In this document: positions 104 to 26,892 of the stretch, piece after piece | Numbering within the stretch: the stretch's first letter is position 1 | Layout of the letters: the number at the start of each line of letters is the position of its first letter | Source: Myxococcaceae bacterium | GTDB taxonomy: Bacteria; Myxococcota; Myxococcia; Myxococcales; Myxococcaceae | NCBI GenBank assembly: GCA_019694575.1 | Contig: JAIBBR010000048.1 | Location: forward strand, 1-34,955 | Direction: 5' to 3' | Length of the DNA stretch: 34,955 bases | Position numbers and translations under genes: made by a program | Notes under the pieces: model-generated | The model's database searches: none | What the model was told of the DNA's origin: nothing | The model's input: the letters and a program-made list of their open reading frames with translations, nothing else

Positions 104-670
104 ATGAGCCGCGCCTACCGCGTGAGTGTTTCTGAATCGTTATCAAAAGAAGTGCACGTCGAAGACGGGCTGTGTTCGCGCTTGGAATTACTGCCCATTT
201 TGCCCAAAGAGCGGCTCGGTGAATTACTGGCGCAAGAGCTCGAAAAAGACGGCTTCCTACGCAAGGGCAACACCGTGGTGCGTCGTGAAAAAAACGGCAT
301 CGACGTCACGGTCGACCTGGGCACCGGCGAATTGAAAGTCACCGCAAAAGGGCACGCTGAATTGGCGCTCAAGACCAAGCGCGAGGGCATCGTCGCCAAC
401 CCCGGTGCGGTCGAAAGTGCTGAAGAAACCCTGCGCGGCAAAGCCAAAGAATCGCTCGAGCGCGAAGCCCAGGCCGAAGAAGAAGCCTTGCGACAAAAAG
501 TCACCCGTCAACTCGAAGACCGGCTGAAAAGCTTGCGCAGCGAGCTCGACGGCGTCACCCACCGCGTCACCGCCGCGGCGCTCAAAGAAAAGGCAGCCGA
601 AATGGGAACGGTAGAAGAAATTTCAGAAGACAAAAAGACGGGCGCGCTCACCATCAAAGTGCGCGTCTAA
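104..670 (+). CDS. Small accessory protein of an FtsH-MoxR-vWA ternary system
   Basis: A 188-aa soluble protein with no signal peptide or membrane segment. The first ~85 residues look like an alpha/beta domain. Residues ~95-160 are Glu/Lys/Arg-rich and probably form a long helix or coiled coil, followed by a short C-terminal strand pair. I do not recognise a named enzyme family. Its place as first gene of the operon, 13 bp before the FtsH-like protease gene, fits the small 'X' domain proteins reported with FtsH-vWA-MoxR systems; that assignment is inference from context. It may be an adaptor that presents substrate to the protease or links the ATPases. The ATG at 104 is the first in frame. 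No Shine-Dalgarno precedes it, so the mRNA could be leaderless. Confidence 0.75.
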   Translation: MSRAYRVSVSESLSKEVHVEDGLCSRLELLPILPKERLGELLAQELEKDGFLRKGNTVVRREKNGIDVTVDLGTGELKVTAKGHAELALKTKREGIVANPGAVESAEETLRGKAKESLEREAQAEEEALRQKVTRQLEDRLKSLRSELDGVTHRVTAAALKEKAAEMGTVEEISEDKKTGALTIKVRV

Positions 671-683
671 GAAAGAGTCACCG

Positions 684-2786
684 TTGCCCGCGCTGATACC
701 CGAAGAGCAGTTGCCGCTCGAGCTCACGCCGTTTCAGGCGGTCGAAGCGGCGTACCCCGGCGAGCTGGCGCGCATTTTCGACGCCTTGAGCAGCGGCCTG
801 TCAGTGCTGGTCGAAGCCGAAAAAGAGCTCACCCCGTACATTTACAAATGCCTCCGTGATCGGCTGAAAAAAGAAGGTCGGCAGTTTTTGTACCTCGACG
901 GGCGGCCGATTTCAGACTTGCCTGCCATTCCCATGGGCAGCAGCTTGGTGCAGACCATCGTCTTTCTCTTGCGCGAAGCGGTGCGCGGGGCAGTGGCTGA
1001 AAAAGTGGTGGTGTTGCCGCACCTCGATTTGCTCACCACGTCGGTGGGCGGGTTGACCAGCGAAGCGCGCGAAGTCATTCCCCTCATGTATGAGAACCCG
1101 GAGCTTAAGTTCCTCGCCTTCAAAGACCCGTCGTTTCCGCTGCCCAAAGTCATCGAGAACGTTTTTCCCCGCCGTGAAGTGTTGATGGGGGTGCCCCGCG
1201 ACCGCTTGGGCCAACTGGTGACGCAACGCGAATCGCGCAAGCTCTCGGCTGACAAAGGCCTGAAGCCGTACGCGCTCTACAAACAAATTTCGGGTGCCAA
1301 CGCGGTGCGGTTGCGGCGGCTGCTCTCGACATTGACGGGTGAAGACTACCCGCTCGACCCCAAGCCCGCATATTCGCTTTTGCGCGCGGGAACCTTGGTG
1401 GGAGCCTTGCAAGTGCCCGAAGTCGACTTGCAAAAAGACATTGGTGGCTATGCGCGGGTGAAAGACCGCATTCAGAAAGAAATTCTCGACGTGCTGCAGG
1501 TGAAAGACGGCCTCGTCGACGACGCGCAAATCAAACGGGTAGAAGGGCTGATTCCCCGCGGCATGATTTTCTGGGGGCCTCCCGGCACCGGCAAGACGTT
1601 GTTCGCCAAGGCCATGGCGCACGCGTTGGGCGCGGCGGTGACGGTGGTGAGCGGCCCCGAATTGAAAAGCAAGTGGGTGGGCGAGAGCGAAGACAATTTG
1701 CGGCAAGTGTTCATGCGCGCGCGGCAGGCGGCCCCCGCCATCATCGTCTTCGACGAGCTCGACTCGTTCGCCACCTCGCGCGGCACCTACACCGGCTCGG
1801 GCGTAGAGCACTCGATGGTGAACCAGCTGCTCACCGAGATGGACGGCTTTCGCAAAGACGAGCTGGTCTTCGTGGTGGGCACCACCAACTTCGTCGAATC
1901 GCTCGACGCGGCGCTGCTCCGCCCCGGCCGTTTCGAATTTCACCTGCACATTCCTTACCCGGGCGAAGACGACCGGCGCGCGATTTTGAAAATTTACGCC
2001 GAGCGGTTGGGGCTGAATTTTAGCGAGCGCGCGTTGGAATATGCCGTGCGCCGCACCGGTGACCCGGTCGAAGGGCAGAACGTTCGCTTCTCGGGCGACC
2101 ACTTGCAGGCGCTCTGCCGCACCTTGGCGCGCATGCGTTTGCGCGAGAAACGCACCGACGTCACCGACTTGGTCGATGTCGAACGGGCGCTGACCGAATT
2201 CGTCGACCGCGCGACGCTGACGCCCGCCGAAGAGCACGTGGTGGCGACCCACGAGGCGGGGCACGCGGTGGTGGCGCTTTTCTGCGCGCATGCTCCAGCC
2301 ATCGAGCGCATTTCGATTCGCGGCGATTTGTCGGGCTCTTTGGGCTTCGTGCGTTATTCAGACCCGGTGAACCGCTATGTCACCACCCGGGCGCAGCTGC
2401 TCGACAATATTTGCACCCTGTACGGTGGGCGCGAAGCAGAGCTGTTGCTCCTCGAAGACTTGTCGATTGGCAGCTCGGCTGACGTGCAGCGCGCCACCGA
2501 TGTTGCCCGGGCATTGGTAGAGCAATTCGGCATGGGCGGTGAAAATGTGGGCGTGCGGCACATTGAGATTTCACGGCAAGCGCCGGCCCCCAGTGAAACA
2601 TTGAAGGCGCGCATCGAAACCGCCGCGCTCGACATTTTGGAACGCGAACGCCGCCGCGCGAAAGACATTCTCGCCACCCACAAGGGGCTGGTGGAAACCC
2701 TGCGTGACTTGCTGCTCGAGAAAAAAGTGCTCGACCGCGAAGCGCTGCAGCACTTGCTCCCTCAAACTGAAAATAAGAAACGGTGA
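684..2786 (+). CDS. Soluble FtsH-like AAA+ ATPase / M41 zinc metalloprotease
   Basis: A 700-aa protein combining an AAA+ unfoldase with an M41 peptidase. Walker A GPPGTGKT is at residues 298-305. Walker B ends in D357-E358, and the second-region-of-homology arginines lie in RPGRFEF. The peptidase motif HEAGH is at 523-527, with the third zinc ligand D600 in SADVQRAT. The 77-residue spacing from first His to this Asp matches FtsH, so protease activity is expected. Unlike classical FtsH (~640 aa, two N-terminal membrane helices) it has no transmembrane segment. Residues 1-250 instead look like a degenerate P-loop-type domain without a Walker A. The start is TTG at 684, 13 bp after the preceding stop. 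It is probably the degradation engine of the cytosolic complex encoded by this operon. Confidence 0.93.
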   Translation: MPALIPEEQLPLELTPFQAVEAAYPGELARIFDALSSGLSVLVEAEKELTPYIYKCLRDRLKKEGRQFLYLDGRPISDLPAIPMGSSLVQTIVFLLREAVRGAVAEKVVVLPHLDLLTTSVGGLTSEAREVIPLMYENPELKFLAFKDPSFPLPKVIENVFPRREVLMGVPRDRLGQLVTQRESRKLSADKGLKPYALYKQISGANAVRLRRLLSTLTGEDYPLDPKPAYSLLRAGTLVGALQVPEVDLQKDIGGYARVKDRIQKEILDVLQVKDGLVDDAQIKRVEGLIPRGMIFWGPPGTGKTLFAKAMAHALGAAVTVVSGPELKSKWVGESEDNLRQVFMRARQAAPAIIVFDELDSFATSRGTYTGSGVEHSMVNQLLTEMDGFRKDELVFVVGTTNFVESLDAALLRPGRFEFHLHIPYPGEDDRRAILKIYAERLGLNFSERALEYAVRRTGDPVEGQNVRFSGDHLQALCRTLARMRLREKRTDVTDLVDVERALTEFVDRATLTPAEEHVVATHEAGHAVVALFCAHAPAIERISIRGDLSGSLGFVRYSDPVNRYVTTRAQLLDNICTLYGGREAELLLLEDLSIGSSADVQRATDVARALVEQFGMGGENVGVRHIEISRQAPAPSETLKARIETAALDILERERRRAKDILATHKGLVETLRDLLLEKKVLDREALQHLLPQTENKKR

Positions 2787-2789
2787 AAC

Positions 2790-3062
2790 ATGGCCACCGT
2801 CATTTTGCGCCTCGAAGTTGACCCCAGCACTCAGAAGAAGAACGTCATCATCAAGTACGAGAGTGACTCTGATGCGCTGCCGATGGAGCACGAAGAGACC
2901 CACAAGGAGCTGCTCGAGCAATTGATTGCCGGCGGCGCGTTGAAAGCGTCTGAATTGGGCCACATCGTCATCGAGCGTGAAGGCGGCGCGGCGCCGTTGC
3001 GGCCTGAAGCGAAAGAACAACCCACCCCTGAGCGCACCGCGGTGACTGAGAAGGGCAAATGA
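2790..3062 (+). CDS. Small accessory protein of the FtsH-MoxR-vWA system
   Basis: A 90-aa protein of unknown function. It has an N-terminal beta-rich stretch (MATVILRLEVDP and following), a helical middle with many acidic residues and a disordered Pro/Glu/Lys tail. No catalytic motif is visible. The ATG lies 3 bp after the protease stop. Its own TGA overlaps the next ATG by 4 bp (ATGA at 3059-3062), which points to translational coupling with the large scaffold gene. Its size and position fit another small 'X' component of the ternary system, perhaps an adaptor; no function can be read from the sequence alone. Confidence 0.75.
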   Translation: MATVILRLEVDPSTQKKNVIIKYESDSDALPMEHEETHKELLEQLIAGGALKASELGHIVIEREGGAAPLRPEAKEQPTPERTAVTEKGK

Positions 3063-6000
3063 AGTCGAAGGCGTTGCTCTTTCCCACTCGCGAGGCGCTG
3101 ACGGTCGCTTTGCGCTCGCACGTGATTCCCCCCGAGCTGCAGCGCGAGCCGGTCGACTTCGCTGATATTGAACAAGGCGTTGCGGTGTGGCCTTTGGGGG
3201 CGTTGCCTGGCGAACGTCGCAGCGCGCTCAAAGAGTTGGGCGTGGGTGAAAAAGACGTCAGCGCCACGCGGCGCCGGGCTGATTGTTGGGCGGCGGTGCT
3301 GCCTCCGGTGCCGACTGATTTACCGGCCGGCAGGTTGCCGCAGGCACTGCTCGCGGTGCGCACGCCAGAGGCCATGTTGAAAGTGTGTGGAGAGCTGCTG
3401 CGGCTGGGTTGTGAGCGGCAAAGCTTTCAGCGCATTGGCGCCGAAGCGCTCTTCGCCTTGGTGAAAGTCGAAGAGCCGTCTTGGTACGTGCTTGGCCAAG
3501 CGCTCGAAAATTCTGGCGGCTTCACGGCGTACCTGCCGTCACCGGCTGGCCAGCAAACCGTGTGGACTCAGCTCGGCTATCGGCATCCGTTTGAGACGAG
3601 TTTGCAGGCTCCCTCGAGCGGCTTTGTGCTCATCGATGGTGACGGCCACTGGCGGGCGTACGACAAGGGCGAGTGGGAAGACGTGGGGCAATGGGTTGAA
3701 CCTTCGTTGCCGCATGCGGTGACGCGGTTGTCTTCGGTAGACCTGCCCCGGTTGCGCGTGCCCATGCAACTTAGGCGTGCGCTCAGGCCTGACGCGCCGT
3801 CGCTGTGGGTGAATGAGGCGGGCGTCGAGACGGTAGAGCGCTGGGTGGCGAACGCGCCCGAGACAGTGCTCGACGACGTGCTCTTCGCGGTGAGCGGCAC
3901 CACGGTGGTGTTGGCGGCGCGGCCGGGGCGCGAACGGGCCGTGGGTGAATTGCCCGGCACCGCTTACGCGCGGCTGTTAGAGCTGCCCAACCTTTACGCG
4001 CCGTACGGCATGACGCTCGAGCCTCCGCTGCGCCGTGACCGCGTGCGTGCCTGGCTCGCGCCTGATTCAGACACCGTTTATTGGCTGACTGAAAAACTGG
4101 CGCCCACCGCGTTGCCGCTCAATGCGTTTCGCCCGTTGTCAGAATGGGTCGACTACGTCATCGACACGGCGCACACCGCGCTGCAGCCGTGGGTGAAGAG
4201 CGCAGCTTTCGAGTTTGGCGTATTCGAAGCCCATGCCGACGAAGTGTTTTCGGCGGTGACTGGCGCTGTTGCCCCCGAGGGCAAACCGGCCGCCCCTTCT
4301 TTTGAGAGCAAGCCTGCGCTCACTGTCGGCAAATCGCGCAGCGCGAAGTCACGCTCGTTGAAAGACGCGGCGAAAGAAGTGCCACCGCCCGCGCGTTCAG
4401 CCCCCACCGTGCGGCTCACCCAAGCCAGCGGGGCCGGGCCAAGCGAAACCGAGCAGGCGCTCGATGCCGAAGAAGCTGCTTTCAAAAAAAGCGACGCCGC
4501 GTGGGACGCGCCCGAGCGCTTGCAGGCATGGGCGAAGTTGGCGCCGCTCTATGCTTCGACGCAGCAGTGGCGTGAAGCGGGTTTGGCGTGGGTGCACGCG
4601 CTGTGGGAATCACCGGGCGATGCGGCGGCGGTGTTGGCGGCGCAGTGGGCGCAGACGGCTCCTATGCCGTTGGGTGAGTTGCTCAAGCTCACCGCGCCGA
4701 CGCAAGACCAGTCGCGCTGGGTGGTGAGCCAGCTATTGGCCGCATGCGCTGGCAAGCAAGGGCTCGCGTCGAACGTCAATTTGGCGCAAGTGTCGGCGTG
4801 GTTAGAGCAGCACGACGCCAACCTCGACGTGCGCTCGTTCTGGCTGGCGCGCTGGGCGTTGGCGCAACTAAGCCAAGGCGACGCGTTGGGGCTGGCGCGC
4901 GCGAGAGACCGCATGCTGGCGCGGCTGCAGCGGGGCCTTTCGCTCGAGCGCGACGTGCCGCGGTTTTTACGGCTCACGGGAACCACCCTGCAGGGCCGCG
5001 AAGGCGAGCGTGCTCAACGCGTCAACGCGCAGCTCGAAGGTTTGCTCAAGGCGTTCGAAGACACCCCGCGCAAACGCTCGGCCATCGAGGCGCCGCTGCC
5101 GTTGACCATGGCGTACGTCGGCTTAGAATTCGCCTGGGGTTTCGCGCGCCTCGGCCGGGTAGACCGCGCCGCGACGCTGCGAGAGAAAGCCCTCAAAGCG
5201 CTCGACACCCACGACGGGGTACACCACTTTTTGAGCAGCGCTTACCGGCAGCGCATTGCCCAGGCGTTAGAAGGGCTTTCGCCCGAAACGCCGCTGCCCG
5301 CTGAGCTGCTGGCGACGCTGACCACGCTGCCCACGTTCGCGCGCTACACCGTCGACCGGCTGCGCCAGTCTTCTTCGGTGCTCGAGCCGCAAGAGCGCCT
5401 CAATGCCACCGAAGACTTGGGCCGGCGCTACGGCAGCGAAAAAGGTGAAGAGCCCGCGGCGTTGCGTTCAATCACCGACACGATGGAATTGGTGCGTGCC
5501 TTAGAAAAGCGCGCCCAAGCGGCGGCCGACCCCAAATATGCCCCCGAAGAGCGTGCCCGCCTGCTCGACACCCTGATGGACTTTTTGCCCCGGGTGCCCG
5601 AGAGCTCGGCGCTGCCGCTGCTCAATCAATTCGTGGCCACCTCGGCCAACCTTCCCGCGCGGCTGCGCATCGTGGTGCTTGAAGACGGGCTCAAAGTGGC
5701 AGGCCACTTCGGCCGCTCGTCGTTGGTGAAGCAATTGCTCCTCACGCTGATGGGCTTGATTTCTGAGTTGGGCGCTGAGGGCGTGGCAGAGCTGGGCAGC
5801 GCGCTGGCAGCGGGGGTGCGCTCGCTGCGGCGGGTGGGCCTGAAAGACGAAGCAGTCGAATTGCTTGGCCGCGCGCAGAAGGTGCTCAAAGCGAACGACT
5901 TGGCGACCGCGATGACCCGCTTGAGCCTGGCGAGCGGCTTTGCGTACCTGGGCCAACTCGACCGTGCGCTCCCCGTCTTCGAAGACGCGCAAGCTCGCTT

Positions 6001-6307
6001 GGCGCAAGAGCGCGACTTGCACGTCATCGACCGCTTGAAGCTGGCCCGTTCGGCGGCGCGGGCGTTCGGCAACGCTCCCACTGAAGTGGCGCTCCCGTTG
6101 TTGGGGCGGTTGGCGGGTCAGCTGCCTTTTCTCACTGACAGTTTGAACACCAATAAGTACTTCTGCCTATCGTTGGTCGATTTTGCCGATACCTTGGTGT
6201 TGGGCCATGTAGGCGACGATTTGACGTTGAATGAGGCGACGCGGCACTTCTTGGAAGAAGATGAGTACCGGGTGCGCTATCGGGTTCACCGTGATGCTGG
6301 AGGCTAG
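3059..6307 (+). CDS. Large helical scaffold protein of the FtsH-MoxR-vWA system
   Basis: A 1082-aa protein without signal peptide or membrane helices. Residues ~1-400 form a mixed alpha/beta region of no family I recognise. Residues ~405-465 are a Pro/Ser/Lys/Ala-rich linker. From ~470 to the end the sequence is a run of amphipathic Leu/Ala/Arg helices resembling a TPR/HEAT-like solenoid (repeated LARARDRMLARL-type and LLDTLMDFL-type helices). I infer a scaffold or substrate-recognition subunit. The start ATG overlaps the preceding stop (ATGA), and GGAG near 6299-6302 just inside its 3' end probably serves the next gene. Repeat number and family membership need profile comparison. Confidence 0.8.
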   Translation: MKSKALLFPTREALTVALRSHVIPPELQREPVDFADIEQGVAVWPLGALPGERRSALKELGVGEKDVSATRRRADCWAAVLPPVPTDLPAGRLPQALLAVRTPEAMLKVCGELLRLGCERQSFQRIGAEALFALVKVEEPSWYVLGQALENSGGFTAYLPSPAGQQTVWTQLGYRHPFETSLQAPSSGFVLIDGDGHWRAYDKGEWEDVGQWVEPSLPHAVTRLSSVDLPRLRVPMQLRRALRPDAPSLWVNEAGVETVERWVANAPETVLDDVLFAVSGTTVVLAARPGRERAVGELPGTAYARLLELPNLYAPYGMTLEPPLRRDRVRAWLAPDSDTVYWLTEKLAPTALPLNAFRPLSEWVDYVIDTAHTALQPWVKSAAFEFGVFEAHADEVFSAVTGAVAPEGKPAAPSFESKPALTVGKSRSAKSRSLKDAAKEVPPPARSAPTVRLTQASGAGPSETEQALDAEEAAFKKSDAAWDAPERLQAWAKLAPLYASTQQWREAGLAWVHALWESPGDAAAVLAAQWAQTAPMPLGELLKLTAPTQDQSRWVVSQLLAACAGKQGLASNVNLAQVSAWLEQHDANLDVRSFWLARWALAQLSQGDALGLARARDRMLARLQRGLSLERDVPRFLRLTGTTLQGREGERAQRVNAQLEGLLKAFEDTPRKRSAIEAPLPLTMAYVGLEFAWGFARLGRVDRAATLREKALKALDTHDGVHHFLSSAYRQRIAQALEGLSPETPLPAELLATLTTLPTFARYTVDRLRQSSSVLEPQERLNATEDLGRRYGSEKGEEPAALRSITDTMELVRALEKRAQAAADPKYAPEERARLLDTLMDFLPRVPESSALPLLNQFVATSANLPARLRIVVLEDGLKVAGHFGRSSLVKQLLLTLMGLISELGAEGVAELGSALAAGVRSLRRVGLKDEAVELLGRAQKVLKANDLATAMTRLSLASGFAYLGQLDRALPVFEDAQARLAQERDLHVIDRLKLARSAARAFGNAPTEVALPLLGRLAGQLPFLTDSLNTNKYFCLSLVDFADTLVLGHVGDDLTLNEATRHFLEEDEYRVRYRVHRDAGG

Positions 6308-6315
6308 ACGTTAAA

Positions 6316-7335
6316 GTGACTGGAAGACCTTCTCGCGACGCCCAAGAAGCCATTGCTGAAGCGACGATGGAACAGCTCTCGTCGCAAGCGCAGGCTTTGC
6401 GCGAGCGCATCAACCGTTTTCGTCTCGCGCTCGGCCGCCACTTCGTCGAGAAACAGACGTTGGTCGACTTAATGACCGTGGCCGCGGTGGCGCAAGAGCC
6501 ACTGCTGCTCGTCGGTGCTCCCGGCACGGCGAAGAGTGACTTGGTGCTGAAGTTCAAAGACGCGTTGGCCCTGCCGCAGAACGATTATTTTGAATATTTG
6601 CTCACCCGCTTCACCGAGCCCTCTGAAGTGTTGGGCCCCATCGACATCAACGAGCTGCGGGCTGGCCGGTACATTCGCCGTGAGCGGGGCAAGCTGCCCA
6701 CGGCGCGCCTGGTGTTTCTCGATGAAATCTTCAAAGCCAGCTCGGCGATTTTGAATGCGCTGCTCACGGTCATCAACGAGCGCAAGTTTTACCAAGACGG
6801 CCTCGCGGTGCCGGTAAACCTGAAGATTCTCTTCGCGGCTACCAACGAAATTCCCGAGAGCGCCGAGCTCGCCGCGTTGAAAGACCGGTTTTGTCTCAAA
6901 GCGGCCTGCCGCTCGGTGCAAGAGACCCACTTCGTCGAATTGCTCGACGCGGGCATCGAGTCGACCACCGCGCGCGATTTGAACAACCGGCCGTGGGCCG
7001 AAGGGCACGCCTCGCTCGATGATTTTTTGAAGGCACACCGTTACCTGACGCTGCTCTTCGCCAAGAAAGAGCCAAAAGACCGCGAAGTGTTTTTTCGCGA
7101 CGAGGTGATGCGCGAGTTTCGCCGGGTGGTGCGCACGCTGGTGCGTGAAGACGAAGTCTTCATTTCAGACCGCAAGCTGGTGAAGCTGTACCGGCTCTTG
7201 CGCACCCGCGCGTGGGTTTTTCACGGTGGCGCGGTAGAGCGTGAAGACCTGCAGCTCTTGTCGTACTTGGGCGAGACGAAAGAAGAAGTCGACCTGTTGG
7301 AAGAGAAAGTTCCTCGGCTGTTGGGCTTTTCGTGA
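6316..7335 (+). CDS. MoxR-family AAA+ ATPase
   Basis: A 339-aa MoxR/RavA-type AAA+ protein. Walker A GAPGTAKS is at residues 67-74, Walker B ends in D136-E137 within LVFLDEIFK, sensor-1 is the Asn of AATNE, and a KDRF motif supplies the likely arginine finger. The TRFTEPSEVLGPIDI stretch is typical of MoxR proteins. MoxR ATPases usually act as remodelling chaperones with a vWA partner, and here the vWA-like gene follows with a 4-bp overlap (GTGA at 7332-7335). The GTG start at 6316 has GGAGG about 10 bp upstream. An internal ATG at residue 18 is an alternative start. Confidence 0.93.
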   Translation: MTGRPSRDAQEAIAEATMEQLSSQAQALRERINRFRLALGRHFVEKQTLVDLMTVAAVAQEPLLLVGAPGTAKSDLVLKFKDALALPQNDYFEYLLTRFTEPSEVLGPIDINELRAGRYIRRERGKLPTARLVFLDEIFKASSAILNALLTVINERKFYQDGLAVPVNLKILFAATNEIPESAELAALKDRFCLKAACRSVQETHFVELLDAGIESTTARDLNNRPWAEGHASLDDFLKAHRYLTLLFAKKEPKDREVFFRDEVMREFRRVVRTLVREDEVFISDRKLVKLYRLLRTRAWVFHGGAVEREDLQLLSYLGETKEEVDLLEEKVPRLLGFS

Positions 7336-8759
7336 AGCCTGCTTTCGACGCCAATGACTGGGCGTGCGCGGGGTTCGCCATTGCGCACGGGGGAGCGCAC
7401 CGTGCCCCCGCGTTCGAAGAAACGTGGGGCTTTCTGTTGGCGTCGCTGGTGGAGCGGCCGACGTTGGGTTTGCCCACCGCCGCTTTTGACTTTGGCAGCC
7501 TGCTGGCGGGGCAGCCGCTCTTGCCGTTTCGACTCGACGTACCGGGGCTGCTGCGCGACGCGGTGCGCGAATGGGAAGACCACGTGCTGGCGCGGTTGCT
7601 CGGTGACCGCCGCTTCGTGCTGCTTCAAGAAGCGTACACGGCGCAACCGCACGGGTTGAAAGGCACGGTGGCGGGGCTCTTGGTGGCGACGTGGGCCGAG
7701 CGCTTGTCGCTTGCGGCGCCAGTGACTTTGAGCGTGGGTAAGCTGCGCGCGTTGGGCAAGCGGGGCATGGCCGACGTGATGGCGCAGGGGCTCGCCAAGG
7801 TGAGCCAAGAAGGGCCGCTGGTGACAGAACTGGCGGCTTCATTGCGCCGCGCCTGCGCGCAAGCCCGAAAGCAGCGCGAATGGGTGACTGACGCCGAAGT
7901 TTTTCTCGCTGAAAACGTGGCATCGCTCAAAGGTTTGGCGTCGCGGGTGGCGCTGGCGCAGGCGGCTTCGGCCACGCAGGCATTGCTCGAGAGCGCTCCT
8001 GGCCGGCTCAAAGCGCGGCGTGACCATGACGCTGACATACCCGTACAGTCAGGCGACGACGACGCGTACCCGATGGGTGGTTTTACGTCACTCACCACCC
8101 GGGGCTCGCTCGAAAATTTGGCCACCACCGAGCTGGCGTACATGGAGCAGGGTGACGAGCGCCCTGATTTCTTCGATGTGCGCTTCGTCGACGATTCACT
8201 GCTTTATTACGCGCGCGACGAGAGCATGGCGTTTCGTCAGAAGCGCGTGGTGGCGTTCGTCTTCGAGGCTTCTCTCAAGCGGGCGCGGGTGGTGGACGAA
8301 GGCGAGAAATACCAAAGGCTGCTCTGGGTGCAGGCTTTGTGCGCGGCGTTGGTGCGAAGGTTGGGGCAATGGCTCGACGGCGAAGGCCTCGTCTTTCAGT
8401 TGTGGTTTGTGAAAGAAGGCGGTGAAGCGCCGCTGTCTGAAGAAGCGGGCGTGCTTTGGTTGCTGCTGCGCGAGTTTCGGCAAAGTGGGCGCGTTACTTT
8501 TCATGAAGCCGCGTCGATAGAAGAGGTGTGGTCAGCGTTGCAGGCGGTGCAGGCGCAGCGGGTAGAAGTGGTGGTGGCTTCGGCCGCAGCGGGGTTACCG
8601 AAAAGCAAGAGCCCGTCGGCACTGACGTTGGCGCTCTCGGTCGACCGGCCGACCCCCACGTTGCAATGGCGCACCGCGGGTAAAAAGTCAGCCGTACAGC
8701 TCGAAGAGAACCTCAGTTGGCGGGCGGCTTTTCACCAAATGTTGCGCGTGTTGCCGTGA
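7332..8759 (+). CDS. vWA-like protein with degenerate MIDAS, partner of MoxR
   Basis: A 475-aa protein. The N-terminal ~230 residues are helical, followed by an acidic linker (SGDDDAYPMGG). From ~300 to ~460 a Rossmann-like series of strands resembles a von Willebrand A domain: RVVAFVFEASLKR, then EGLVFQLWFVK, then RVEVVVASAAAG. In an intact vWA the first strand ends DxSxS; here it reads E312-A-S-L-K, so the metal-ion site appears lost. The assignment rests on the MoxR neighbour, strand pattern and operon type more than on a conserved motif. The GTG start overlaps the MoxR stop. It likely bridges the MoxR ring to substrate or to the scaffold. Confidence 0.75.
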   Translation: MKPAFDANDWACAGFAIAHGGAHRAPAFEETWGFLLASLVERPTLGLPTAAFDFGSLLAGQPLLPFRLDVPGLLRDAVREWEDHVLARLLGDRRFVLLQEAYTAQPHGLKGTVAGLLVATWAERLSLAAPVTLSVGKLRALGKRGMADVMAQGLAKVSQEGPLVTELAASLRRACAQARKQREWVTDAEVFLAENVASLKGLASRVALAQAASATQALLESAPGRLKARRDHDADIPVQSGDDDAYPMGGFTSLTTRGSLENLATTELAYMEQGDERPDFFDVRFVDDSLLYYARDESMAFRQKRVVAFVFEASLKRARVVDEGEKYQRLLWVQALCAALVRRLGQWLDGEGLVFQLWFVKEGGEAPLSEEAGVLWLLLREFRQSGRVTFHEAASIEEVWSALQAVQAQRVEVVVASAAAGLPKSKSPSALTLALSVDRPTPTLQWRTAGKKSAVQLEENLSWRAAFHQMLRVLP

Positions 8760-23112: not shown

Positions 23113-26100
23113 CTATCGCTTTTCGATAAGCAGGTCGCGCTCTTGAATCAGGTCGACTGAGCCCGCGAAATCGCCGAACGCCAGGTAGCTCTTCGGCTCG
23201 ATGCGCGCCATTTTCACCACCAGCGTCTCTTCGATGGTCACCACGTTGCCTTGCTGGTTCTCTTTGCGGCTGTAGCGGCCGAACGGCACCGTCGTGTCGA
23301 GGTTGACCTTGTCTCCCGACAGGCTCCAACCCGCGGGCAGCGTCAGCTCGACTTTGGTGGTGGTGTGCTCGGTGCCGTCGATGAACAACGGCGTGCGGCG
23401 CTCGCTCAACGTCAGGTAGCGCTTACCCAACCAATTGGGAAAAGAAATGGCGCGCAGCACTTTGCGGTGCGGGCCCTCTTCTCGAGCAAAACGGGGCACC
23501 TTGAAGCGATAGGCCACCGTGACTTTGCCGCCCACTTTGCGCTGCACGTCGAGGTCGAGCTTTTCCATCTCGGCGCCGCCGAAGTAACGCGCCAGCGCAC
23601 CTTGCAGCGCTTGCTCGCGCTGGTCGACCGGCAGGCTTTCTAACGCTTCGCCCAACGCCGCCGCCGCGTAGCCTTCGTAAGTCTCTTTGCCCTCGCCCGA
23701 CAGCGTGCCGTCTTCACTCAACGCCAACGTCAGGCGGGTGTCGCGGCCTGGGCGCGGTGTCATCGGCGGGGTGGTGACTTTTTCTAACCCCTTGCCCGGC
23801 TCGGGCAGCACGTACGCCTCGCGGTTACCGAGCGCGACTTCAGGCAACTCTGCGAAAGGAGCAAACCGCACCAACGTGTCGAGCCACAGCGTCTCTTGCG
23901 GCAACACCACGCGCAGGCAAATGTAGGGCAGCGACTGCTCATTGGGAAAACGGTACGGCTGCGGGTCGGCTTGAAAGGTGCGCACCGCGACCAACCGCGC
24001 GTCAAACCCCAACGCCATCAGCGACGACTTGAGCAACCACAGCCGGCTGCCCCGGTCTTGCGCCACCGAAGCCGCGGCCGACATCGACAAGCCCACGTCG
24101 GGGCCCGAGAGTTTTTCCATCACTGCGCTGTACAGCGCTTCAACCGCTTCGCGCCCCGTCTTGCCTTTCGCGGCGCTCTGCGCGAACTGTTCGACTTCGA
24201 ATGTCGCTTGGCCGTTGTCGAGCGTGAGGTCGGCGTACGCATTCACCACGCCTTCGTTGCCCAACGCACCCGCGCCTACCGTGACGTACGGCAGCCACTC
24301 GTTGCCTGACGGAGGCCCCGACGGCTCGGGTACGAAGGGCGCCACCCGCCGCTCTTCATGAAAGAAGACTTCGTTGTTGCCCTCGGTGCGCACCGGCTGC
24401 ACGTCAACCCGCCGTGCGTCGACCGACATGCCCGCACCCTTTGGAGCGATGACTTTGTACGTCGACCAGTTGTTCGGCTGCCGGGCGATTTGAAAATAGA
24501 ACGAGGGCGCGGTGAAGCCGGGTTGTGCCGCTCCCCGCGACGGGTGCGCGAGCAAATATTCGTACTCGATGAAGTCACCCACCTGCACGCCCGGCAAACT
24601 GATGGTGTCTTTGCCTTCGAAATTTTCGGGCTCCAACACCGAGCCGTCGGCCTTCAGCGTGCGCAGCGACAAAATCTGCGCGCCTGGCGGCAAATTGACT
24701 TCGGCCACTTCAGCCACGCCGCTTTGGTCTAACGCCTTCTGAATAATGTGAATGCGGTCGACCATGCTCCCATCGGGAAAAGCCTGCACCGCCGCGGCGT
24801 CGAGAATGTACGCGCTGGGAGCGTCTTCAGCACCCGGCGCCGCCTGGTACGCTTTGAGCGCTTCTTGCGTCGAAATGGCGTGCTCCTCGAGCAGCTCTTT
24901 GCCCGTCAGCCTTCGCACCATGTTGCGGCGCAAGCTCAAGTCGCTGCCGTCGATGCTGAGCGCCAGCTGCTGTGTGGCGGTGGCGTCGTCGTCTTTTCGC
25001 GCTTGCAATTGCACCTCGGCGAGCAACTTCATGCTCGTCAAGTGGCGGGGCCAGTGGCTCAGCTGGTCGCGCAATACTTTTATCGCCGCGTCATATTTTT
25101 TTTGCGAGACGAAGGCTTGCGCCAACGCCACCGACACTTGCGTTTGCACGTCGTCAGTGGCCACCGCGCGCTCCCACAGCGGTATGGCGGCGCTCACGTT
25201 GCCGCTCGACTTGTCGTGCTCGGCCTCGCGCATCAACGCGCCAGGGCACGAAGCGAGCGTGGCGACGAGCTTGTTTTTACTTTCGATGGCGTCGTACCGC
25301 TTCGCCAAGTCGTAACGCAGCTGCAGCGACTCACACAGGCCCGGCCACGCCTTCTCGGCTTCTTGTGCGCTCAAGTCGGCCTGGGCTTCGCTGCCCAACG
25401 CCAGCTCAATGCGGGCGCGCAACTGCCACAGCGGGCCCGAGGCTTGCTTGGCGCGCTTCACCCATTCTAACGCGTCGGCCAGGCGGGCGTCTTCGAGCGC
25501 CAGCGTGGCGCTGAGCGCCAGGGCCTGCAGAGTGTGCGGGTCTTTTTCGAGCGTGACTTCGAGCTCGCGGCTGGCGCGGCCGGTGGCCACTTTCGCCGGT
25601 ACCGTGCGGTCTTGAGCCGTCACCAGTGTGCCGAGCAAATGGTAGGCGGCCGAATTTTGAGCGTCGGCGGGCAGGCTGTGCCACAAGCGCTTCGCGCCGT
25701 CATGGTCGCGCGAGAGGCCATCGTAGGCGGCGAGAAAAGCGGCCAACCCTTCGCCGGTCTCGTCGGTCAGCGCGGCGGCGAAATCGGCTGCGGCAGAATA
25801 GAAGCCTTGGTCAGCCGCGGGTGAAACGGTGACGCCGTTCCACTGCGGAGCGGCGCCGTGCGCGGCCTTGAAGGTGAGGCCCGAGGGCTGCCCGTCGACG
25901 CGCGCGATAGATGCGTAGAAGGCGCTCGCTTGCTCTTCACGAATCAGCTTGAAGAGCAGCCGGTGCGTGCCCGCGGGCAACCGCACCACTGCGGCGGTGA
26001 GGGTTGAGGCGGGGTGGGTGCTCGTCTCACGGCGAAAAAGCGGCGTACCGTCGAGAATGGCCGCGTGGTCCATGCCGGTGACGGTGCGCACCACGTAGTC

Positions 26101-26892
26101 TGCCTCGACGGGCACTTCGAGGTCGGTGGCGCCGAGGTAAACGTCTCCCAGCGGCTCAGCGGCCAGTGAGAAGCGGCCCTCGTCGAAGCGCAGCACCCGC
26201 GGCGCGAGCGAGCCATAGGGCCCGGTTTCGGTGTCAGCGGGCAAGGTGCCTGTCTTTTCCATCGGCAACAGGGTGTCGAAAGCCAGACGGCGATAAGGCG
26301 AGAACGGCCCCGTCAGCGTGAGGGTGGTGAGCGTGCCCAACTGCGAGAGCATTTGCTGGTGTTTTTCGCTTTCGTGGCGGTTTTGAAAAACCGAAGCCAA
26401 GGCGCTGCGCATCAACACGGCGGCGTCGGCGCGCAGGCCGGCGTTGAGAGCGCGCTCCCCGCGTGCGGCAATGAGCGCGTCGGTCGAAAGTGAAAGGCCG
26501 GCAGATTCGAACACCACGCGTGCAGCGGCGGCGGCCAGCGGGTGGCGCGGCGCGTTCTCGCAGACATCGAGCGCCGCGAGCACGGCTTTGTGCGGCTCTG
26601 TGTTGCGTTGGGCAAGCAGCCATTGCCCAGCCAATGCATAGGGTTCAGCCGCGTCGGCTTGCAGCGATTGCTCGAAGAGCTCCTTGGCTTTGACCGCGTC
26701 GTTGCCGGCCAGCAGCACATAAAAAGCAGCGAGCGCCGAATCACGCGCGCTGCCGCTGCCTTGGGTGAGCCGGGCTTGGGCCTCGCGCAAGGTGTCGAGC
26801 GGTGAAGCGGCCCGGTGGGCGCACCCGGCGCTGATGAAAAAAAGGGCCCCCAACCAGCTGCCCGCAGAGAGAAAAGAGCGTGAGCGCGTCAT
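23113..26892 (-). CDS. Large TPR / DUF3857 / transglutaminase-like lipoprotein
   Basis: A 1259-aa protein. The N-terminus is a lipoprotein signal (LGALFFISAGC, Cys at 24). Residues ~30-620 are TPR-like helical repeats interrupted by a beta-rich block near ~205-330. A DUF3857-like beta domain (~660-830; VDRIHIIQKALDQSG, LPPGAQILSLRTLKADGSVL) precedes a transglutaminase-like core (~900-1040). At the usual GxC site the sequence is RGSRLW with S949 in place of Cys, and the expected His is also absent (LPYICLRVVL), although WLDT keeps the Asp. The domain is probably not catalytic. A C-terminal beta region (~1080-1259) follows. Such proteins are common in Bacteroidota and Myxococcota; their role in the envelope is unknown. 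Confidence 0.9.
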   Translation of the reverse strand: MTRSRSFLSAGSWLGALFFISAGCAHRAASPLDTLREAQARLTQGSGSARDSALAAFYVLLAGNDAVKAKELFEQSLQADAAEPYALAGQWLLAQRNTEPHKAVLAALDVCENAPRHPLAAAAARVVFESAGLSLSTDALIAARGERALNAGLRADAAVLMRSALASVFQNRHESEKHQQMLSQLGTLTTLTLTGPFSPYRRLAFDTLLPMEKTGTLPADTETGPYGSLAPRVLRFDEGRFSLAAEPLGDVYLGATDLEVPVEADYVVRTVTGMDHAAILDGTPLFRRETSTHPASTLTAAVVRLPAGTHRLLFKLIREEQASAFYASIARVDGQPSGLTFKAAHGAAPQWNGVTVSPAADQGFYSAAADFAAALTDETGEGLAAFLAAYDGLSRDHDGAKRLWHSLPADAQNSAAYHLLGTLVTAQDRTVPAKVATGRASRELEVTLEKDPHTLQALALSATLALEDARLADALEWVKRAKQASGPLWQLRARIELALGSEAQADLSAQEAEKAWPGLCESLQLRYDLAKRYDAIESKNKLVATLASCPGALMREAEHDKSSGNVSAAIPLWERAVATDDVQTQVSVALAQAFVSQKKYDAAIKVLRDQLSHWPRHLTSMKLLAEVQLQARKDDDATATQQLALSIDGSDLSLRRNMVRRLTGKELLEEHAISTQEALKAYQAAPGAEDAPSAYILDAAAVQAFPDGSMVDRIHIIQKALDQSGVAEVAEVNLPPGAQILSLRTLKADGSVLEPENFEGKDTISLPGVQVGDFIEYEYLLAHPSRGAAQPGFTAPSFYFQIARQPNNWSTYKVIAPKGAGMSVDARRVDVQPVRTEGNNEVFFHEERRVAPFVPEPSGPPSGNEWLPYVTVGAGALGNEGVVNAYADLTLDNGQATFEVEQFAQSAAKGKTGREAVEALYSAVMEKLSGPDVGLSMSAAASVAQDRGSRLWLLKSSLMALGFDARLVAVRTFQADPQPYRFPNEQSLPYICLRVVLPQETLWLDTLVRFAPFAELPEVALGNREAYVLPEPGKGLEKVTTPPMTPRPGRDTRLTLALSEDGTLSGEGKETYEGYAAAALGEALESLPVDQREQALQGALARYFGGAEMEKLDLDVQRKVGGKVTVAYRFKVPRFAREEGPHRKVLRAISFPNWLGKRYLTLSERRTPLFIDGTEHTTTKVELTLPAGWSLSGDKVNLDTTVPFGRYSRKENQQGNVVTIEETLVVKMARIEPKSYLAFGDFAGSVDLIQERDLLIEKR

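Follow-up and report, generated by a model that had tools for sequence, protein, structure and literature searches.

What is encoded by six tightly packed genes that bring together a soluble FtsH-type protease, a MoxR-type ATPase, a vWA-like protein, two small proteins and a 1082-aa scaffold, and do they serve in biological conflict or in the regular running of the cell? The genes form a series of co-directional ORFs at 104-8759 on the + strand of contig C93, the whole of which (34,955 bp) constitutes the window and which belongs to a 5.3-Mb draft genome from the family that includes Myxococcus and Pyxidicoccus. Intergenic distances are, in order, 13, 3, -4, 8, and -4 bp; the FtsH ORF starts with TTG, and those of MoxR and the vWA-like protein (ivWA) with GTG. 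The tightly packed genes listed in the preliminary description are real and correctly read, and each of the six ORFs reaches the curated cut-off in a Pfam model specific to its family, with E values from 1e-28 to 1e-59. No transmembrane-like segment was detected by hydropathy in any of the six products. Since all six match family-specific models and their order is kept in dozens of relatives, the arrangement, judged by these matches, is not due to chance. A downstream gene encoding a 748-aa membrane protein was considered as a seventh member and rejected, as no homologue of it adjoins the operon in the compared loci. Elsewhere in the window (23113-26892), a 1259-aa minus-strand ORF contains repeat-like and transglutaminase-like stretches recognizable by eye.

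The Pfam families matched here are those curated for FtsH ternary systems, whose simple type (MoxR-vWA subsystem 3) was named from genome comparison by Kaur, Burroughs, Iyer, and Aravind (2020; PMC7159879). According to these authors, the systems combine an inactive N-terminal and an active FtsH-type AAA domain, a MoxR protein with the P-loop GXXXTAKS, a divergent vWA that may lack the metal-binding aspartates, and fvmX domains. In the simple type, the vWA protein carries a large all-alpha domain at its N terminus, with a radical SAM protein and/or a NEFF1 effector plus peptide encoded adjacently; the complex type has a beta-propeller-vWA plus Ubl/E1/E2/JAB (Kaur et al., 2020; PMC7159879). The operon shares with this class an FtsH with a P-loop-free but conserved N-terminal half and an intact active AAA domain, a MoxR P-loop (GAPGTAKS) that fits the consensus, a divergent vWA devoid of the MIDAS aspartates (PF19997), and fvmX5, fvmX3-analog and fvmX7, with fvmX6 and a radical SAM protein encoded elsewhere in the genome. 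By its family content, the operon thus belongs to the simple type of FtsH ternary systems, and profile searches that placed the small proteins and the scaffold in the fvmX5, fvmX3-analog and fvmX7 families bear out the earlier assignment to ternary systems. It differs from the described simple type in that the radical SAM and fvmX6 genes are unlinked from it and no NEFF1, caspase, Ubl or peptide effector was recognized with it, and from the complex type in that Pfam models detected no beta-propeller-vWA, Ubl, E1, E2 or JAB domain in the six proteins. Some likeness also exists to the beta-propeller MoxR-vWA ternary systems (bpX/bpMoxR), as the MoxR protein matches bpMoxR and the scaffold weakly matches bpX2; however, the vWA protein of the operon carries no beta-propeller, and FtsH is present. 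In a text search of the literature library, the paper of Kaur et al. (2020) alone used the term "FtsH ternary system", and biochemical work on the class did not turn up.

The FtsH-type protein (684-2786; 700 aa; AAA, 3.4e-40; Peptidase_M41, 1.1e-31) comprises a putative inactive N-terminal AAA copy (residues ~1-245), an active AAA domain (~250-500) and an M41 zinc protease domain (~512-691). Walker A (GPPGTGKT, 298-305), Walker B (D357-E358), the arginine fingers R413 and R416, the pore-loop motif W331-V332-G333, and the zinc ligands H523, H527 and D600 together with E524 (HExxH...D) are all invariant in 19 homologues ranging from Myxococcota to Gemmataceae. The N-terminal 245 residues have no P-loop, yet they are strongly conserved, and this half matches what would be a dead AAA copy, with the AAA fold taken from the published description of the class (Kaur et al., 2020; PMC7159879). 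A Ycf46-like identity for this region was not supported (profile-profile probability of 0.3%). Like a housekeeping FtsH, the protein has AAA and M41 domains with all catalytic residues, but it lacks a membrane anchor, so that the epithet "soluble" holds, and it possesses the extra inactive N-terminal AAA copy and accessory partners.

The second motor is the MoxR-type AAA+ ATPase (6316-7335; 339 aa; bpMoxR PF20030, E 1.7e-59), for which RavA was the only sequence match in the PDB (3nbx, 2e-42). GxPGTAKS was found in 9/9 aligned sequences, and both the P-loop and Walker B are invariant apart from one P-loop position. The ivWA protein (7332-8759; 475 aa; PF19997, E 2.5e-35) has a C-terminal vWA domain (residues 247-425) preceded by ~240 N-terminal residues. 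The first strand of this domain, which reads FVFEASL in the window, lacks the MIDAS motif DxSxS, as do all 10 aligned homologues; because of this loss, Mg2+-dependent peptide binding by ivWA appears unlikely. The label "vWA-like" therefore stands as far as the family is concerned, but not in the sense of an active vWA. The operon resembles the RavA-ViaA pair of Escherichia coli in that its MoxR aligns to RavA and has a vWA protein as a partner, whereas the loss of the MIDAS motif and the company of a soluble FtsH and fvmX7 set it apart. The ivWA proteins of genomes G184-G186 score above that of the window and possibly belong to the other ternary subtype.

The AlphaFold2 model of fvmX5 (104-670; 188 aa; PF20003, E 5.3e-50) has a pLDDT of 89.7 and predicts a long-stranded beta-sheet and a helix of 68 residues, with no fold match in the PDB at E<=0.001. 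A relationship of fvmX5 to DUF1257/Ycf35 was not supported either (profile-profile probability of only 2.5%). In sister families that belong to the same order but do not encode fvmX5 (loci L201-L214), DUF1257 is encoded beside a Ycf46-type AAA protein and an FHA or radical-SAM protein, a module that resembles the fvmX5 loci although profile comparison does not support homology to fvmX5. The fvmX3-analog (2790-3062; 90 aa; PF20002, E 9.8e-29) was modeled with low confidence (pLDDT 64) as beta-beta-alpha-beta with a disordered tail, and its assignment to a ubiquitin-like or another known fold was discarded in view of that low confidence and the lack of a PDB match. In Archangium-type bins and their relatives (L140, L142, L146-L150), the gene for this protein is followed on its 3' side by one encoding an 85-aa protein with no Pfam match, and often then by one for an FHA protein, neither of which is present in the window. 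The scaffold fvmX7 (3059-6307; 1082 aa; PF20005, E 8e-39) also shows a weak match to bpX2 (PF19918, 2.3e-05) and, in its C-terminal half, to TPR-like repeats (TPR_12, 0.02). Weak fvmX7 homologues were detected in other Myxococcota families (L107, L108, L110; genomes G185 and G182), where fvmX6 is at most borderline; these, too, may represent the other ternary subtype.

The preliminary description had taken the operon as complete, and this proved wrong. In the loci of the Myxococcus/Pyxidicoccus genus that were read in detail, genes for an NrdG-like radical SAM protein and for fvmX6 (PF20004, 7e-58) stand directly upstream of fvmX5, with 4-bp overlaps. In the source genome, the same two genes, overlapping each other, are located on contig C56 (2364-4063 of 8893), at least 4.8 kb from the operon if this contig and C93 adjoin at all. 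As C93 starts 103 bp before fvmX5, the window does not show where the operon ends on its 5' side. Because the radical SAM and fvmX6 genes stand upstream in relatives and elsewhere here, the system has at least eight parts, and the window operon contributes six.

The radical SAM protein is NrdG/PFL-activase-like, and this, together with RavA being the nearest solved structure to MoxR, fits a factory that matures a metallo- or radical enzyme or a complex, in which a RavA/ViaA-like MoxR-vWA pair would assemble the client, the NrdG-like protein would activate it, and FtsH would remove failed products. A further point in its favor comes from the genes following ivWA. In the Myxococcus/Pyxidicoccus genus (L076:1830-10556; L162), ivWA is succeeded by an STM4015-like WGR/LRR protein and by STM4014, components of another radical-SAM cluster, with STM4011, STM4012 and STM4013 just beyond in L076; STM4015 and STM4014 likewise follow ivWA in a distant locus (L180, 18032-20511). 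However, STM4014 is absent above cut-off from the source genome and present in genera without the FtsH system, the NrdG similarity does not go beyond the superfamily and stays under the NCBIfam cut-off, and the operon encodes no client enzyme. We therefore regard such a factory as improbable.

Conservation of gene order, which the preliminary description had proposed as a check, was found in dozens of relatives and extends across families and phyla. Indeed, the eight-gene order radical SAM-fvmX6-fvmX5-FtsH-fvmX3-analog-fvmX7-MoxR-ivWA also occurs in Kofleriaceae (L170) and in a Myxococcales bin without closer placement (L180), while L168, L174 and L176 show the greater part of it; in L169, L171, L173, L174 and L177, MoxR and ivWA were not seen inside the fetched flank, and the full set is not claimed there. 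Two loci with Myxococcota-type operons are titled Comamonas sp. KCTC 72670 (L166, BNCN01000003.1) and Bifidobacterium breve (L172, CALQBK020000006.1); L166 matches genome G107 of the Myxococcus-containing genus, and the two records appear to be either mislabeled or drawn from contaminated assemblies. Within the family, the pairs radical SAM-fvmX6, fvmX5-FtsH and fvmX7-MoxR mostly remain together, and the fvmX3-analog neighbors FtsH, its neighbor in some distant loci being fvmX7. Two junctions of the operon, fvmX3-analog|fvmX7 and MoxR|ivWA, are interrupted in relatives by genes that include those for an FAD oxidoreductase, a PI-PLC, an iron ABC transporter, a pectin acetylesterase, a LysM protein, a carbonic anhydrase, PGI, a thiolase and a beta-oxidation enzyme. 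The idea that these slots act as effector cargo bays was dismissed, as their contents are ordinary genes, with no recognized effector among them in the examined relatives.

In a survey of ~96 genomes of the family, fvmX5 was detected in 49, fvmX6 in 48, fvmX7 in 48 and ivWA in 47, these being the same genomes, and the few lone absences of fvmX6, fvmX7 or ivWA correspond to fragmented or incomplete bins. In none of the ~96 genomes does a part occur with most of the others missing. These families are thus all-or-none in 49 of the ~96 genomes, a pattern reported here for the first time, and the independent occurrence of the genes, which the preliminary description had named as grounds for rejecting the system, was not encountered. 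Copy number is one for each, save additional short fragments in G050, G073 and G054. Both the conserved order and this co-occurrence refute the view that an unrelated housekeeping FtsH merely happens to adjoin a RavA/ViaA-like pair. Both FtsH and MoxR represent widespread families, and the bpMoxR model matches in 12/14 control genomes as well, but a separate, ordinary FtsH is encoded on contig C156 of the source genome, and chance vicinity is hardly credible.

Presence of the system goes by genus: fvmX5 was found in 27/27 species genomes of the Myxococcus/Pyxidicoccus genus and in 0/16 and 0/6 of others, with two exceptions, 3/4 and 6/7. When the tree of five concatenated components was compared with that of rpoB in 25 genomes, a Mantel r of 0.956 was obtained (0/2000 permutations as high), and 16/22 splits were common to both. 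From this congruence it follows that the system is inherited by vertical descent with occasional loss and is not a mobile island; losses in several genera do occur despite the agreement of the trees. Median dN/dS values of close pairs, estimated by a simple Nei-Gojobori method on few pairs, were 0.06 for MoxR, 0.08 for FtsH, 0.08 for rpoB, 0.14 for ivWA, 0.16 for fvmX5, 0.18 for fvmX7, 0.27 for fvmX6 and 0.29 for the fvmX3-analog. All parts are under purifying selection, with no sign of a hypervariable effector or sensor among them.

These data bear on the conflict role entertained for the operon in the preliminary description and proposed for the whole class on grounds of architecture and enrichment in multicellular bacteria (63/79 organisms; Kaur et al., 2020; PMC7159879). 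In an anti-phage or suicide system of this kind, MoxR-vWA and FtsH would keep an effector in check as long as no invader is sensed, and the radical SAM protein, which the source genome does encode, would modify a peptide effector. Nevertheless, neither the six genes nor the C56 pair nor the insertions of the examined relatives showed an effector domain, no precursor-peptide gene was identified, and PADLOC returned only generic AAA-type matches. Single copy number, vertical inheritance without a patchy or mobile distribution, and the lack of any fast-evolving component likewise speak against it. Vertical inheritance and purifying selection are by themselves compatible with an immune role, since stable immune genes exist; on the whole, however, a conflict function did not find support and we consider it unlikely, though less so than the maturation factory.

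The reading that we favor, with somewhat more confidence than doubt, is that the operon encodes most of an ancient soluble, cytosolic two-motor machine for unfolding and degradation, because the parts list and the intact active sites support it. The RavA-like MoxR, its inactive-vWA partner and the fvmX7 scaffold would grip and remodel a specific substrate or complex, which the soluble FtsH, with its dead N-terminal AAA ring, active AAA domain and zinc protease, would then unfold and degrade; fvmX5 and the fvmX3-analog would be dedicated partners of FtsH, and the radical SAM/fvmX6 pair encoded elsewhere in the genome may modify the substrate or a component. The coupling of a MoxR unfoldase to an FtsH unfoldase-protease suggested earlier is compatible with the conserved, intact ATPase and zinc protease sites, whereas the single complex also proposed there goes a step further: we infer that the parts form one complex in which MoxR/ivWA feeds FtsH. 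The role of this machine would be a stable cellular one, in regulated turnover or complex maturation, rather than defense. Against a core function in proteostasis stands the dispensability of the system, which several genera of the family lack.

The present analysis weakens the conflict label, and an anti-phage role is not favored. More tentatively, simple FtsH ternary systems may have been misfiled as conflict systems. In Myxococcota they may instead constitute a machine of eight parts for proteostasis or maturation, ancient and inherited vertically, whose RavA-like motor and inactive vWA would feed a soluble FtsH with two rings, and which would include a modification step by a dedicated radical SAM protein. 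The pairing of a soluble FtsH with a MoxR and a vWA protein would combine two AAA+ motors in an unusual way. The genetically tractable Myxococcus xanthus has the system (strain AM003 record, locus L162), and the constant set of eight parts, their vertical descent and the purifying selection acting on them provide a concrete reason to examine a role other than conflict.
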